NCBI GenBank assembly: GCA_013152895.1
Contig: JAADFN010000024.1
Location: 1-33,328, forward strand
Length of the DNA: 33,328 bases
Source: Acidobacteriota bacterium
GTDB lineage: Bacteria > Acidobacteriota > Thermoanaerobaculia > Thermoanaerobaculales > Sulfomarinibacteraceae
Direction: 5' to 3'
Positions within the stretch are counted from its first letter, which is position 1; each line of letters begins with the position of its first letter. The translations under genes and the position numbers were made by a program. Under the pieces are notes generated by a model that worked only from the letters and a program-made list of their open reading frames with translations, was not told where the DNA came from and ran no database searches. This document shows positions 2,698-25,281 of this stretch, piece after piece.

Positions 2698-3916
2698 GTT
2701 TGCGCAGATTCTGCTGGCCGTGAGCCTTGCGGCTCTGGCTGGCTGTGTCGTGACGGCGCGCCGGCCGGCCCCGCCGGCGCTCGTGCCATACCCATCGCCG
2801 CTCGCCGGGCCTGGAGCTCCGGTTGTCGGACGGTCGATTCGGCACGCCGTCTCCAAGGGGTTCAAAGCCCTCGCCGGGGGCCATCCCGAAGCCGCCCTGG
2901 CGCACGCAGAACACGCCGGAGAGGGAGTGGCGGCCACCGTCTTGAAGGCCCAGGCGGAGATGGCGGCCGATCCCGCCGCGGCACAACGTCTCCTGGAGGG
3001 GATCGTCCAACAGGCGCCGGGTTACGCCGCCGCGTGGCTGACGCTTTCGGTGGCGGCCGAGCGGAGCGGCAACGAGAAAACCGCGCTTGAAGCGGCCCGC
3101 CGCGGTGCCTCGCTGTGGAACGCGCCGCGGTGGCGCCAACGGGTCGCCAACCTGCAAGATCGCTGGATCACCGCGCGGCTCGCGCGGGCCCGCGCCGCGG
3201 TGGCCGACGGCGCCTTTCCCCGAGCAGCACGGCTGGCGAACGCCGTTCTCGCGCTCGACCCAGCCAGCCTCGATGCGCATCTTCTCAAGGCGCGCGCCCT
3301 CCTCGGACAGGGGAACGCCGCGAAGGCGGCGGCGAGCCTGGCGGGCCTTCCGGACGTGCCGAAGGTGATCGCCATGCGCGGCCGCATCGCCGAGAGCGAG
3401 CACCGCTGGGCCGAGGCGATGGGCCTGTACGAATCGTTGCCCGCAGGGTTCCCCGGTCGAGATGCGATGCTGACCCGGGCCAAGAACCGGTGGCGGATCT
3501 CGAACCTGCCGACCTACGTCGGCGAGGCCATCGAGTCGAAAGATGTGACGCGGGCGCAGCTGGCCGTCCTGCTCGTCGATCTCGTGCCCGAGGTCCAGGC
3601 GATGGCGGCCGGCCCGGTACCGGTGCTTCCCGACATCGTCGGGCTCCCCGAGCAGCGGGAAATCGTCGCGGCCGTGCGCGCCGGGCTCCTCGATGCGGAC
3701 GACTTGGAACACCGTTTCTTCCCCGCGCGCACGGTCAGTCCAGCCGAGATTCGTACGGCCATTAACCGCCTCTATCGTATGCTGGGACGGCGGACGCCAC
3801 GCTGGTGCACGGCGAGTGCTCCGTCCGCCGGGTGCATCCCGGTGGCATCCCCCGTCAGCGGGCGTGCCGTGTTTCAAGCGATGATGCCGTTGCTGGATTC
3901 GGGAGGCTCTCGATGA
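2666..3916 (+). CDS. TPR-type lipoprotein with SLH-like C-terminal region
   Basis: Predicted outer-envelope lipoprotein of 416 residues. The ATG at 2666 was chosen because it follows GGCAGGTG and gives a clean lipoprotein signal: positively charged N-terminus, hydrophobic stretch, then LAGC with Cys27. Residues about 60-285 are Ala-rich paired helices typical of tetratricopeptide repeats (for example GYAAAWLTLSVAAERSG and DAHLLKARALLGQG). Residues about 292-374 resemble an S-layer-homology module: VTRAQLAVLL, then LPDI, an AVRAGLLDAD helix-turn and FFPARTVSPAEIRTAI. The gene starts inside hfq (32-bp overlap) and its stop overlaps the start of the Crp-type gene, so it sits in the same transcript. 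No enzymatic motif is seen. A role in linking envelope layers or scaffolding an outer-membrane complex is inference only. Confidence 0.82.
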   Translation: MPNRFQPIARRFAQILLAVSLAALAGCVVTARRPAPPALVPYPSPLAGPGAPVVGRSIRHAVSKGFKALAGGHPEAALAHAEHAGEGVAATVLKAQAEMAADPAAAQRLLEGIVQQAPGYAAAWLTLSVAAERSGNEKTALEAARRGASLWNAPRWRQRVANLQDRWITARLARARAAVADGAFPRAARLANAVLALDPASLDAHLLKARALLGQGNAAKAAASLAGLPDVPKVIAMRGRIAESEHRWAEAMGLYESLPAGFPGRDAMLTRAKNRWRISNLPTYVGEAIESKDVTRAQLAVLLVDLVPEVQAMAAGPVPVLPDIVGLPEQREIVAAVRAGLLDADDLEHRFFPARTVSPAEIRTAINRLYRMLGRRTPRWCTASAPSAGCIPVASPVSGRAVFQAMMPLLDSGGSR

Positions 3917-4584
3917 GTCCGCAGACCATTGAGCTGATCGCCAACGTCGAGCTCTTTTCGGGGCTCGATCAAGACGAGCTTCGTTCGATCGCGCAGCTCG
4001 TCCACGTCCGTCACATCGAGCGGGAAGGGAAAATCTTCGACGCGGGGGATCGCGCCGACGCGGTGTACATCGTTTCCAAGGGGAAGGTCAACATCGTCAT
4101 CACCAGCCCGGACGGCAAGGAGCTGATCCTCGCGGTGCTGGGCGAGGGCCAGATCTTCGGCGAAATGGGCCTTCTCGAGGCCGCACCGCGCTCCGCCTCG
4201 GTCGTCGCGGCGACGCAGGTCGAGCTCCTCTCGATCTCGCGATCCGATTTCGACCAGCTCCTCGACCAGCATCCACGGATCTCGCGGAAGCTCCTCGCGG
4301 TCATCTCGCAGAGGCTTCGCCGGGCCAACGCCAAGATGGAATCGCTGGCCTACATGGATGTCGCGGGGCGCCTGGCGCGCTACTTCCTCGACCTCGCCCG
4401 TGATCACGGCCAGAAGCTCGGCAACGGATGGGTCGTCGTCAGGCGTCCCACGCACTCCGAGATCGCACATTCGATCGGGACCAGCCGTGAAACCGTCAGC
4501 CGGCTGATCAACGACTTCGAGGAACGCCTGGGCATGGCCAACCAGGGCCGCTTCACGTACATCCGTGAAGATCTCCTGAGCTGA
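3913..4584 (+). CDS. Crp/Fnr-family transcriptional regulator
   Basis: A 223-residue cyclic-nucleotide-binding-type regulator. Residues about 10-125 form the beta-roll effector domain (IFDAGDRADAVYIVSKGKVNI, then GQIFGEMGLLEAAPRSASVVA, close to the phosphate-binding cassette of cAMP receptors). A long dimer helix follows, then a winged helix-turn-helix near 179-200 (PTHSEIAHSIGTSRETVSRL). No N-terminal cysteine cluster is present, so it is not an oxygen-sensing Fe-S FNR; a nucleotide ligand is likely but unproven. The ATG at 3913 follows GGGAGG and overlaps the preceding stop (ATGA). An in-frame upstream extension exists but has no similarity or ribosome site. It is the last gene of the run; half a palindromic repeat follows directly after the stop. 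Confidence 0.93.
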   Translation: MSPQTIELIANVELFSGLDQDELRSIAQLVHVRHIEREGKIFDAGDRADAVYIVSKGKVNIVITSPDGKELILAVLGEGQIFGEMGLLEAAPRSASVVAATQVELLSISRSDFDQLLDQHPRISRKLLAVISQRLRRANAKMESLAYMDVAGRLARYFLDLARDHGQKLGNGWVVVRRPTHSEIAHSIGTSRETVSRLINDFEERLGMANQGRFTYIREDLLS

Positions 4585-4662
4585 CCCCACCCTGGTCGAG
4601 ACGCCACACCGACGGGCGCGTGCACCATCTCGCGACGCAAGTCCGCTGATATGCGGGTTCAG
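4585..4662 (+). repeat. Half copy of the dispersed palindromic element
   Basis: Beginning at the base after the crp-type stop, this stretch aligns over its whole length with the right half of the 168-bp tandem elements near 24.9-25.2 kb. The shared blocks are CCCACCCTGGTCGA, ACGCCACAC, TCTCGCGACG and GATATGCGGGTTC. The left arm is missing, so it cannot form the full hairpin. It may be a truncated or decayed copy. Its right end lies 7 bases before the TACAAT box of the next gene. Confidence 0.75.
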
Positions 4663-8267: not shown

Positions 8268-8352
8268 GTCCGAAGTGTACCAAAGGCTCAGGGCCACGTC
8301 GGACCGCCAAAGCTCGTTTCGTCGCTCCCTGCATGTGCGATGGGGTCTCTCT

Positions 8353-8523
8353 AGCCACGGCTCTCACGCACGTCCTGCTGCGACCGCGGGTGCGCCTGCT
8401 GTTGCGCCGTTTCTCGCGCCGTCGCCGGCGATGTGCCCCCAGCTGCCCCCACCGTGATTGAAACACCACGCGGGCCGCCGTTTTCGCGGTCTCACGACGA
8501 TGCTCCGTGAGAGACGCGGGTTA
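8353..8523 (+). repeat. Diverged copy of the dispersed palindromic element
   Basis: The stretch aligns end to end with the tandem elements near 24.9-25.2 kb, in the same orientation. Left-end matches are AGCCA, TCTCACGC and TCCTGCTGCGACCG; right-end matches are GCGGTCTC, ACGACGATGCTCCGTGAGA and GCGGGTT. The central part is more diverged, and the arm-to-arm distance is about nine bases shorter than in the tandem copies. Its arms CTCTCAC (8361-8367) and GTGAGAG (8507-8513) are complementary even though both differ from those of the other copies. The right end contains the stop codon of the mltD-like gene (TAA read from 8523 to 8521). It fills most of the gap between that gene and tsaB. Confidence 0.8.
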
Positions 8524-10362
8524 GCTGGATGCTTCGACGTCCGGAATCTGGAGCACATCGCCGGGATGGATACGCGAGCTTCGCAGTCTGTTGGCGTGAC
8601 GGAGGGCCCGCACGGTGGTCCCGAACCGGCGTGCAATCTCGAAGAGCGTGTCTCCACGGTGGACGGTGTAGAGGTTGGCCCGTGATGCGGACCGGGAGAC
8701 GATCGCCCGTGGTTTCCTGTGGGGGTGCGAGGCCCGCGGAATGACCAGGCGTTGGCGGGGATGAAGCAACGACCGTCGGCTCAGCCGGTTGGCGGCACGC
8801 AGCCGTCTCACGGACACGTGAAACGCCCGGGAGATGTCCCACAGGGTGTCGTTGGCCCGAACCACGTAGATCTTTTCCCCTGCCCGTATTCGCACCGCTC
8901 GGCGGGAGCGCGGGGCGGTGCGCCTGGCGACAAGCCCGAGGCGTGGCACAACGAGGCTTTGACCGGGGTGGATGAGATTGCGCCTGAGGCCGTTGGCCTG
9001 CCGGATCGAGGCTACCGTCGATCCGTATCGCCTGGCGATCGTATACAGCGACTCGCCCCTGACGACCGTGTGAATGAGCCGGGGCGCCCACCTCTTCCTG
9101 GGGACCGAGCGGAGCAAGGCCTCGGCCCTGGCGCGCATCCCGCGCGGCAACCGGAGCTGCGTGACCTGGCCGGCCGGCGTCAGGTCGCGCCGTACCGCGG
9201 GGTTGAGCTTGCGAAGCTCGTCGAGAGGGATATCGAGCCTGGAGGAGAGGAACTGGAGATCGACGGCGTCGGGGACGTTGATCGTGTCGAAGGTCCATGC
9301 CGAGGGACCCGGGGGATCCAGCCCGAACCGCCCCGGTTCCTTGGCGACGATCACGGAGGCGATGAAAGCGGGGACGTAGTTTCGCGTTTCCCGGGGGAGG
9401 TAACGCCGGATCTTCCAAAAGTTCGAGCTGTGCGCCCTCCTGATGGCCCTGCGCACGTTTCCGACCCCCGAGTTGTACGCAGCGAGAGCGAGGTACCAGT
9501 TGCCAAACTGGGCGTGCAGATCGGACAGGAAGGCGATCGCCGCATCGGTGGATCGTTCGGGATCGCGGCGTTCGTCGATCAGCGGAGAAACCCGCAGGCC
9601 GTACAGCCTCGCCGTTGAGGAGATGAACTGCCACATCCCCGTGGCCCTGGCCCGGGAACGTGCGACCGGCGAAAAGGCCGATTCGATGAGCGGCAGGTAG
9701 GCGAGATCTTGCGGAAGGCCGGCGGCCTTCAGGCGCGTCCGGATCATCGGCAGGTACGCCGCGCCCCGCAGGAGCCCCTTGGCGATCCGTGCCCGGTACT
9801 CGTTTGGATCGGTAAACATGTCGAGGTAGCGCTGAACCGCGCCGTTGAGCACGAGCGGCAGGTCGCTCGAGGGCAGCATGTTCGCCAGGCCGGGAGGCAG
9901 CTCGGTGGATGTGAGATCGGGAAGGTCCTCCTGGATGATCTTCGCCATGTCGCCGGAATCGTCCGCCGTGGCGTCTTCTGGCTGGCCTTCGAGCTGATCG
10001 TCGAGCTGATCGTCGAGCGATGCGGACTCCTCGAGAACCTGGGCGGCGTACGTCATGTACCGGGGATTGACCGGGTACCCTGCCGGGGGCTGGAAAACAA
10101 CGGCCAACGCCTGGTCGCTGCACGCCTGGGCGCGTGCCGCTTCGCCGGCTGCGGCGGCCCGCCGGGCTGCATCGAGCAGATCTTCGGACCTGGAGCGCGC
10201 CGAAGCCTCCCACGCCGAGAATGACCGGTGCGACGGGGCCGACGTGTGTGGTTCAGCGACCCGGGGCGTGGGTTCCGTCGATGAGCAGCCCCAAACACCG
10301 ATGAAGCCGACAACGGCGAGGCCAACCAGGCGCCAGCGCCGGAATCGGGAGTACAGGCTCAC
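8521..10362 (-). CDS. MltD-like membrane-bound lytic murein transglycosylase with three LysM domains
   Basis: Cleaves the glycan strands of peptidoglycan with formation of 1,6-anhydromuramic acid ends. The protein has 613 residues. A lipobox ending at Cys26 (GVWGC) places it on the envelope. An acidic linker near residues 111-140 repeats DDQL. The SLT catalytic domain spans about 195-330: catalytic Glu227 in LIESAFSP, GMWQF at 242-246 and AYNSG at 295-299. Three peptidoglycan-binding LysM modules follow at about 431-473, 499-542 and 565-607, each starting with a Tyr/His-Thr/Val-Val segment and ending HPGQ/HPRQ/HPGD..IP. The start is a GTG at 10362 overlapping the stop of the mglA-like gene (GTGA), with GGAG about ten bases upstream. 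MltD of E. coli has a similar order with two or three LysM repeats. Confidence 0.92.
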   Translation of the reverse strand: MSLYSRFRRWRLVGLAVVGFIGVWGCSSTEPTPRVAEPHTSAPSHRSFSAWEASARSRSEDLLDAARRAAAAGEAARAQACSDQALAVVFQPPAGYPVNPRYMTYAAQVLEESASLDDQLDDQLEGQPEDATADDSGDMAKIIQEDLPDLTSTELPPGLANMLPSSDLPLVLNGAVQRYLDMFTDPNEYRARIAKGLLRGAAYLPMIRTRLKAAGLPQDLAYLPLIESAFSPVARSRARATGMWQFISSTARLYGLRVSPLIDERRDPERSTDAAIAFLSDLHAQFGNWYLALAAYNSGVGNVRRAIRRAHSSNFWKIRRYLPRETRNYVPAFIASVIVAKEPGRFGLDPPGPSAWTFDTINVPDAVDLQFLSSRLDIPLDELRKLNPAVRRDLTPAGQVTQLRLPRGMRARAEALLRSVPRKRWAPRLIHTVVRGESLYTIARRYGSTVASIRQANGLRRNLIHPGQSLVVPRLGLVARRTAPRSRRAVRIRAGEKIYVVRANDTLWDISRAFHVSVRRLRAANRLSRRSLLHPRQRLVIPRASHPHRKPRAIVSRSASRANLYTVHRGDTLFEIARRFGTTVRALRHANRLRSSRIHPGDVLQIPDVEASS

Positions 10363-14434: not shown

Positions 14435-16305
14435 GCAAGATCATCGGCATCGACCTTGGAACGACGAACTCGTGCGTTGCCGTCGTTGATGTCACCAAAC
14501 CGGTCGTTATCCCGAACCGGGAAGGCGCGCGCACAACGCCTTCTGTCGTGGCTTTTACGCAGGATGAAGAACGCCTGGTCGGCCAGATTGCCCGGCGGCA
14601 GGCGATGACCAATCCGGCGAACACCGTCTACGCGGTCAAACGGCTGATCGGCCGGCGTTTTTCGGCGACGGAGGTGCAGCGGGCCAAGGAGCTGGTGCCG
14701 TACGCCATCGTCGAGGCGTCCAACGGCGACGCGTACGTGGAGGTCCGGAACCGGCAGTACAGCCCACAGGAGATCTCGGCCCAGATTCTCACGGAGATCA
14801 AGGGGTTTGCCGAGACGTTCCTGGGAGAAGAGGTGACACAGGCCATCATCACGGTTCCGGCGTATTTCGACGACTCGCAACGCCAGGCGACGAAAGACGC
14901 GGGAACCATCGCCGGGCTCGAAGTGCTCCGGATCATCAACGAGCCGACGGCCGCCTCGCTGGCCTACGGCTTCGGGCGCGAAGGCCGCGAGACGATCGCC
15001 GTGTACGACCTCGGCGGGGGGACGTTTGATATCTCCGTGCTGGAGATCGGCGACGGCGTCTTCGAGGTCAAGTCGACGGCCGGCAACACGTTCCTCGGGG
15101 GCGAGGATTTTGATCAACGCGTGATGGCTTACCTGCTCAACGAGTTCAGGAGCACGACCGGCATCGATCTGTCCGCAGACACGATGGCGATGCAGCGGAT
15201 CAAGGAGGCGGCCGAGGCGGCCAAGTGCGAGTTGTCGACCGCCGAGGTTGCCGAGATTTCGCTTCCATTCATCGCGGCCGACGTCACCGGTCCCAAGCAT
15301 CTTCAGGTCCAGCTGACCAGGAGCCAACTCGAGGATCTCGTGCGCGATCTCGTGGAGAAGACGCTCGACCCGTGTCAGAACGCACTCGAGGCGGCGGGGT
15401 TGAACCCGGGGGAAGTCGACCAGGTAATCCTGGTTGGCGGCCAGACTCGCATGCCCCTGGTCCAGGAAACGGTGACGAGATTCTTTGGCCATCCCCCCTC
15501 CCAGGAAATCAACCCGGACGAGGTCGTTGGGATCGGAGCGGCCATCCAGGGCGGCATCCTTCAGGGCGAGGTCAAGGATCTCATCCTGCTCGACGTGACG
15601 CCGCTGTCCCTCGGTATCGAAACGCACGGCGGTCTCTTCACCCGGATCATCGAGCGGAACTCGACGATCCCGACGAAGAAGTCGATGATCTTCACGACGG
15701 TCGCGGACAACCAGACGACCGTCGAGATTCACGTGCTCCAGGGCGAGCGCGGCCTGGCCGCCGAGAACCGTTCCCTGGGACGTTTCGACCTCGTCGGCGT
15801 GCCACCGGCCCCGCGCGGGGTGCCCCAGATCGAGGTGACCTTCGCCATCGACTCCAACGGCATCGTCAACGTCAGCGCGCGGGACCTTGCCACCGGCAAG
15901 GAGCAGAGCATCGAGGTCAGCCCGGCGGGCGGCCTGTCGAAGGCGGAGATCGACAGCCTGATCGCGGAGGCGGACAAGTTTCGCCAGGAGGACCAGGCCC
16001 GGCGGCGGTTGCGGCAGATGCGGAACCAGCTCGAGGGGCTGCTCTACACCAACGACCGGGTGTTCCAGGAGTTCGGGGGCAGCCTCGAGAAGGAGGACCG
16101 GGAACAGGTCCGTTCCACGTTGAGCCGGGCGAGGAAGGCGCTGAACGTGGAGGAGGAATCGGTGCTCAGCGAAGCGATCTTGGCGGTGCAGGAAGCCGCG
16201 CACGTGCTGGCGCAGGTCATCATGTACAACCCGATGTCGATGTTCGGACAATCTACGCGGAAATCGGGGAGCAATCCTGATGATGGTTCGAAGCAGGGGG
16301 AGTGA
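14431..16305 (+). CDS. dnaK: Hsp70 chaperone DnaK
   Basis: ATP-driven chaperone that binds exposed hydrophobic segments. The protein has 624 residues and a GTG start overlapping the grpE stop (GTGA). Nucleotide-binding motifs: [14 protein letters not shown] near the N-terminus, [32 protein letters not shown] and [13 protein letters not shown]. The hydrophobic linker [15 protein letters not shown] leads into the substrate-binding domain and the helical lid. The C-terminus ends [10 protein letters not shown] without the acidic EEV-type tail seen in many DnaKs, and the protein is slightly shorter than the E. coli form (638). Confidence 0.97.
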
Positions 16306-24833: not shown

Positions 24834-24844
24834 ACAACCTCCTT

Positions 24845-25027
24845 AGCCAGCATATCTCACGCGCTTCCTGCTGCGACCGAGGATACGCCGGCCATTGCGG
24901 TGTTTCTCCCGGCGGTGTCGCCTGCGGCGTGCCGCGAGCACGCCTCGGCCCCACCTTGGTCGAAACGCCACACCGGCGGGCGTCTCCCCGGTCTCGCGAC
25001 GAAAGTCCGTGAGATCTGCTGGCTGCC
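24845..25027 (+). repeat. Palindromic element, tandem copy 1
   Basis: A 168-bp core (24851-25018) bounded by CATATCTCAC and its near-complement GTGAGATCTG. The two halves are imperfect inverted repeats along their length: blocks such as ACCGaGGAtACGCC, GGCC and GTTTCtCC on the left recur as the reverse complement on the right, and the middle holds CGGC-GT-GCCG. It is nearly identical to copy 2, which starts 179 bp later. The 11-bp junction, CTGGC-T-GCCAG at 25019-25029, is itself a perfect palindrome. The left edge touches the ribosome site of the malic enzyme gene. Confidence 0.92.
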
Positions 25028-25206
25028 AGCATATCTCACGCGCTTCCTGCTGCGACCGAGGATACGCCGGCCATTACGGTGTTTCTCCCGGCGGTGTCGC
25101 CTGCGGCGTGCCGCGAGCACGCCTCGGTCCCACCCTGGTCGAAACGCCACACGGGCGGGCGTCTCCCCGGTCTCGCGACGATGCTCCGTGAGATATGCGG
25201 GTTCGG
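25028..25206 (+). repeat. Palindromic element, tandem copy 2
   Basis: A second 168-bp core (25030-25197) with perfectly complementary ends CATATCTCAC and GTGAGATATG, differing from copy 1 at only a handful of bases. The right tail GCGGGTTC matches the ends of the copies at 4585 and 8353. Together the two copies fill most of the 448-bp gap between the malic enzyme and the TPR gene. The rest (25207-25281) shows nothing recognisable. No protein is credible here: frames through the element are open on several strands simply because of its composition. Confidence 0.92.
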
Positions 25207-25281
25207 CGCCGCCCTGGACGGGGCAACTCCCATGTATGTATCGGTTCCCCGGCGGCAGGTGTCAAGCGGGTCACGGCCGTG

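Follow-up and report, generated by a model that had tools for sequence, protein, structure and literature searches.

IS1380-family insertion sequences are the prokaryotic relatives of piggyBac, and duplication of YTAR is also known from IS5. The Correia, QMITE and MITEAba12 MITEs are, like the element described here, gene-less, intergenic and bounded by terminal repeats, and their ends and movers differ from those of our element. REP, BIME and REPIN repeats, which go with REP-associated tyrosine transposases (RAYTs), are likewise multi-copy extragenic palindromes, but the present element is much longer, has a DDE-type terminal repeat and a 4-bp duplication, and is unlinked to the RAYT genes in this genome; neither 4-bp duplications nor such a 15-bp terminal repeat would be expected of RAYT elements. 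To our knowledge, the enterobacterial repeats ERIC and RU-2 are not moved by IS1380. ERIC (127 bp) and RU-2 (168 bp) are intergenic mobile repeats of similar size to our element that are regarded as MITEs (PMC10969869, PMC2759123); they occur in other hosts. QMITE2 copies lie mostly in 3' untranslated regions (PMC10969869). Elements of the piggyBac type duplicate TTAA in most cases, and the variants include CTAA and TTAG (PMC10813416); IS1247, an IS1380 member from Paracoccus, makes a 5-bp duplication (PMC3281130). IS1380 goes unmentioned in a review of prokaryotic MITEs from 2024, and a literature search with the end motif of the present element returned chance primer matches only.

Against this background, the repeats in the window, the whole 33,328-nucleotide stretch of DNA analysed here, are best explained as non-autonomous IS1380-type MITEs, a reading to which we assign a probability of roughly 0.88 and in which the link to IS1380 rests on the ends and the target duplications. 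They would represent a new MITE family of this genome (G000) and its relatives.

Copies in the window and across the genome

An earlier note on this DNA had described two near-identical inverted-repeat units in tandem, and the pair is indeed present at 24847..25022 and 25026..25201 (+ strand, 95% identical), although the unit measures 176 bp and not the 168 bp first given. The two related copies that it listed are also in the sequence: a complete, diverged copy of 166 bp at 8355..8520 and a right half of 73 bp at 4585..4657, both on the + strand. The common orientation claimed for all copies holds within the window but not genome-wide, where both strands are used. Element bounds in the window were set by the terminal repeat. 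The first tandem copy is palindromic over its whole length, and the folding energy of one 176-bp unit, -101.9 kcal/mol, lies below that of shuffled sequences (mean -73 +/- 4; z = -7.2). An Rfam search with the element gave zero family matches, and it contains no transposase gene and no conserved protein reading. The right half starts directly after the TGA of a Crp-family gene (gene 3805-4584; stop and half-element at 4582-4657), a position from which its left half appears to have been deleted or replaced.

The description of a dispersed family was borne out by BLASTN of the 2.99-Mb assembly with one copy as query, on which the genome copy counts rest. About 42 copies were found at 69–95% identity to the query, many with E < 1e-20, which excludes chance alignment of GC-rich blocks. 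Genes around 30 copies were called with a simple codon-usage script. None of the 30 lay inside a gene; neighbouring genes were tandem in 13 cases, divergent in 8 and convergent in 5, and the element end fell within -3..+1 bp of the adjacent gene's 3' end in 10 of 25, so that the intergenic position beside stop codons noted earlier stands.

The tandem pair sits in the predicted 5' leader of a malic-enzyme-like gene (PF00390, PF03949; 23469..24833, - strand). It is adjoined by a ribosome-site-like AAGGAGG at 24838..24844 (- strand), conserved in the same-genus genome G001, and preceded upstream by a promoter-like TTGACA-17-GATACA at 25237..25265 (- strand), whose G001 counterpart is TTGACA-17-GATAGA. 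Given that the pair lies between these two motifs, two very stable hairpins probably enter the malic-enzyme mRNA leader.

Terminal repeats, target duplications and empty sites

The element has the form CCCGCATATCTCAC...GTGAGATATGCGGG, flanked by 4-bp YTAR target duplications that are clear in relatives. Its terminal inverted repeats are 15 bp long and of the CCYGCATWTCTCACC type, the best-conserved part across genera, and they enclose a core that makes the element palindromic from end to end. With one mismatch allowed, CCYGCATATCTCACC gave 139 matches in G019 and 96 in G002, both family relatives, and the reversed control gave 0. Copies in sister genera had YTAR at 43 of 60 left flanks and 37 of 60 right flanks, and 18 of the 60 had two flanks that agreed over exactly 4 bp, versus 8.4 after shuffling (maximum 17). 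In a wider set the flanks were identical over 4 bp in 38 of 67 among the matches listed, versus 17.5 after shuffling (maximum 29); this second test is partly conditioned, as the wider scan demanded YTAR on one side, and the sister-genera set (n=60) is not. Target-site duplications, which the earlier note had proposed as a check, are thus found, as 4-bp YTAR, both in sister genera and in other phyla. Exact 4-bp duplications were seen at 0 of 20 copies in G000, where the terminal repeat has drifted; judging by these flanks, the duplications there have decayed. The G000 copies are old.

The genome G001 retains both genes that flank the tandem-pair site (76% and 79–81% identity) and has no element between them, reading ...GGCGGCGCGAAGGAGG where the window reads ...GGCGGCGCCGA, the pair and AAGGAGG. 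On the malic-enzyme side of the pair, TTAG at 24843..24846 reads as a YTAR flank. The CTG between the copies (25023..25025) is probably a shared YTAR-type duplication minus one base, and the outer flank of the second copy is TTCG (25202..25205; CGAA on the gene strand), for which the empty G001 site has CGAAGGAGG. The site of the diverged copy reads ...GGTGCTAGCTCGAG in G001, with one CTAG, and the window has CTAG (8351..8354) as left and TTAG (8521..8524) as right target copy around the element. This TTAG holds the - strand stop TAA of ORF 8521-10362, which carries SLT/LysM domains; insertion at YTAR therefore hit a stop codon and left the gene uncut. As the YTAR target is contained in TAA and TAG stops and in ribosome sites, the positions of the elements there follow from the target.

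These observations also bear on the possibility that selection maintains the repeats as hairpins at the ends of genes, as terminators, stabilisers of mRNA 3' ends or similar, with the transposon-like ends as mere history. Very stable folds, the absence of copies from genes, the 10 of 25 neighbouring 3' ends that touch an element and the strong pair covariation in the sister genome G005 (below) are all in its favour. We nevertheless consider it very unlikely, since neither pairing nor compensation in the G000 copies exceeded that of shuffles and no consensus structure was found among them, both of the complete-element window sites tested in G001 are empty, and the stop-codon positions are explained by the YTAR target. 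For the G000 copies, the evidence favours decay without function, and local effects are possible.

Relation to IS1380-family insertion sequences

In other genomes, IS1380-family insertion sequences of 1.72–1.74 kb have the same 15-bp ends and, outside these, identical CTAG or CTAA duplications. One of them (L288, 1736 bp) runs from CCTGGATTTCTCACC to GGTGAGAAATCCAGG between two copies of CTAG, and a second (L289, 1723 bp) from CCCGCATTTCTCACC to GGTGAGATATCCGGG between two copies of CTAA. L308 (1724 bp) has CTAG on both sides, L363, from the same taxonomic class, is a further IS1380 element with CTAG/CTAG flanks, and L312 is a shortened IS1380-type element. The ends of L288, L289, L308 and L363 are near-matches at both sides, with one to two mismatches per end. 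Single ends were found beside transposase genes or fragments in L364, L365 and L369 (same taxonomic order) and in L375; no transposase was found beside unpaired ends in other phyla among the matches listed. IS1380 transposase genes were identified by PF13701 and NF033539 in genomes reached through the element ends, and PF13701 was present in 21 of 31 such genomes among the matches listed, versus 3 of 14 control genomes. The MITE shares with these insertion sequences (L288, L289, L308) the 15-bp ends starting with CC and the 4-bp CTAG or CTAA duplication, and it differs in having no transposase gene, a length of 176 bp and an unrelated palindromic core. Similarity to IS1380 insertion sequences was found at the ends only, and the core is not derived from them.

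An IS1380-family transposase would act in trans and cut at the element ends, and the element would insert at YTAR with duplication of the 4 bp. Such a transposase probably moved the G000 copies, its gene having since been lost from G000 or being missing from the draft, and the copies would then have decayed without selection. The transposase gene with the same ends that the earlier note had suggested looking for thus exists within IS1380 elements of other genomes but not in G000, where no IS1380 gene was found. A parent IS1380 insertion sequence with these ends was found neither in G000 nor in 19 family members, and none of the 20 family genomes, G000 included, gave a match to the L289 transposase. 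PF13701 genes in the GTDB family occur in G002 and G005 only; they lack these ends and were rejected as the mover. The G000 element population looks old and orphaned, and an insertion sequence dropped from the draft assembly would look alike.

A 4-bp YTAR duplication alone is not specific to IS1380, and this, with the lack of an IS1380 gene in G000, would also suit mobilisation of the MITE by a different DDE family, for example IS5. We hold this to be very unlikely: in ten family genomes, the elements with DDE_Tnp_1 (PF01609) have no such ends and were rejected as the mover, whereas intact IS1380 elements have the ends at both sides together with the duplication.

The earlier note had left the choice between a MITE and a BIME/REP-type repeat. 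The terminal repeats, the YTAR duplications in relatives, the empty sites and the IS1380 ends argue for the former. REP/REPIN-type elements moved by a RAYT might be suspected from three Y1-type genes in G000, of which two exceed the NCBIfam RAYT cut-off and one lies 120 bp from an element copy. The gene near an element copy on contig C100 (L073, gene 1465-2469, RAYT-type by NF047646) has, however, its own, different short repeat, CCAGGCATCCAGATTTC, on both sides, and a RAYT system predicts neither the 15-bp terminal repeat nor the 4-bp duplication. With none of the Y1-type genes tied to the element, we rejected this explanation as extremely improbable.

Spread of the element and complementary arms in a sister genus

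In a consensus search, the element was present in 12 of the 19 other genomes of the GTDB family, and outside the family only short weak matches were obtained. Full-length copies in family relatives keep 176–179 bp. Those of G019 are about 90% identical, the pattern of a recent burst. Several G002 contigs (L134-L138) begin approximately 110–125 bp inside near-identical element copies, which suggests that the assembly breaks at recent copies; G002 copy counts are lower bounds. When one genome per species was scanned, at least 119 stretches with YTAR and an element end were obtained, where about 30 were estimated to occur by chance; those listed belong to Proteobacteria, Acidobacteriota, Planctomycetota, Verrucomicrobia, Gemmatimonadota, Bacteroidota and others. 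A second, inverted end lay 117–430 bp away in at least 67 loci (matches listed plus G002 loci), with size classes near 176–178 and 240–247 bp among the matches listed. One linked similarity cluster of 28 sequences includes representatives of G000, G001 and G019 as well as loci from other phyla. The IS1380-type end motif on short palindromes in many phyla, together with the recurrence across phyla of the 176–178 bp class with related cores, points to horizontal spread.

The sister-genus genome G005 shows an anomaly in the arms. Its element core matches the G000 consensus by up to 86%, and GCCCG at the outer end is largely retained, but the approximately 15 bases that follow it vary between copies. 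In these copies (L033, L049, L076-L100), outer arms of roughly 20 bp are copy-specific and complementary within the copy: identity between copies is 0.43 in the arm versus 0.75 in the core, and arm complementarity averages 16/20 within a copy versus 8.5 between copies. RNAalifold gave 68 pairs, 48 of them with double changes. Core pairs, too, change jointly on their two sides. Relative to shuffles, double changes numbered 179 versus about 48, mismatches 72 versus 266 and G-U pairs 22 versus 61. No within-copy arm matching was seen in G000, G019 or G002 with a cruder, position-based test.

Insertion into pre-existing hairpins was rejected as the origin of these arms: in 303 kb of G005, perfect stems of at least 16 bp were nearly all elements, the remainder being one unrelated repeat, and core-less short-loop stems numbered 0. 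That the arms are the ends of other elements was also rejected, as 11 of 13 arms tested had no third near-exact copy in the 303 kb; of the copies in this test, L097 was of low complexity and uninformative and L100 lay outside the 303-kb sample. One arm may have been rewritten from the other as DNA, through hairpin-templated conversion or arm copying during insertion, the ends being determined by structure rather than sequence. Such rewriting, which we put forward tentatively, as a possibility with the odds against it, agrees with the low number of G-U pairs; selection on the RNA would be the other explanation. At two G005 positions (L351:639-819 and L349:10838-10941), an element with unique arms of its own is apparently nested in the apex of another copy. 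A further inverted repeat, whose stem is CTGTCATCCCGACCGA and which seems unrelated to the element, occurs at L349:15351-15505 and 15722-15905.

The decay of the G000 copies, set against the complementary arms in G005, offers a test of DNA rewriting versus RNA selection. The preference for stop codons is explained by the target sequence alone. A likely mover can now be named for a class of intergenic palindromes that might else pass for REP-like repeats or stay unclassified.
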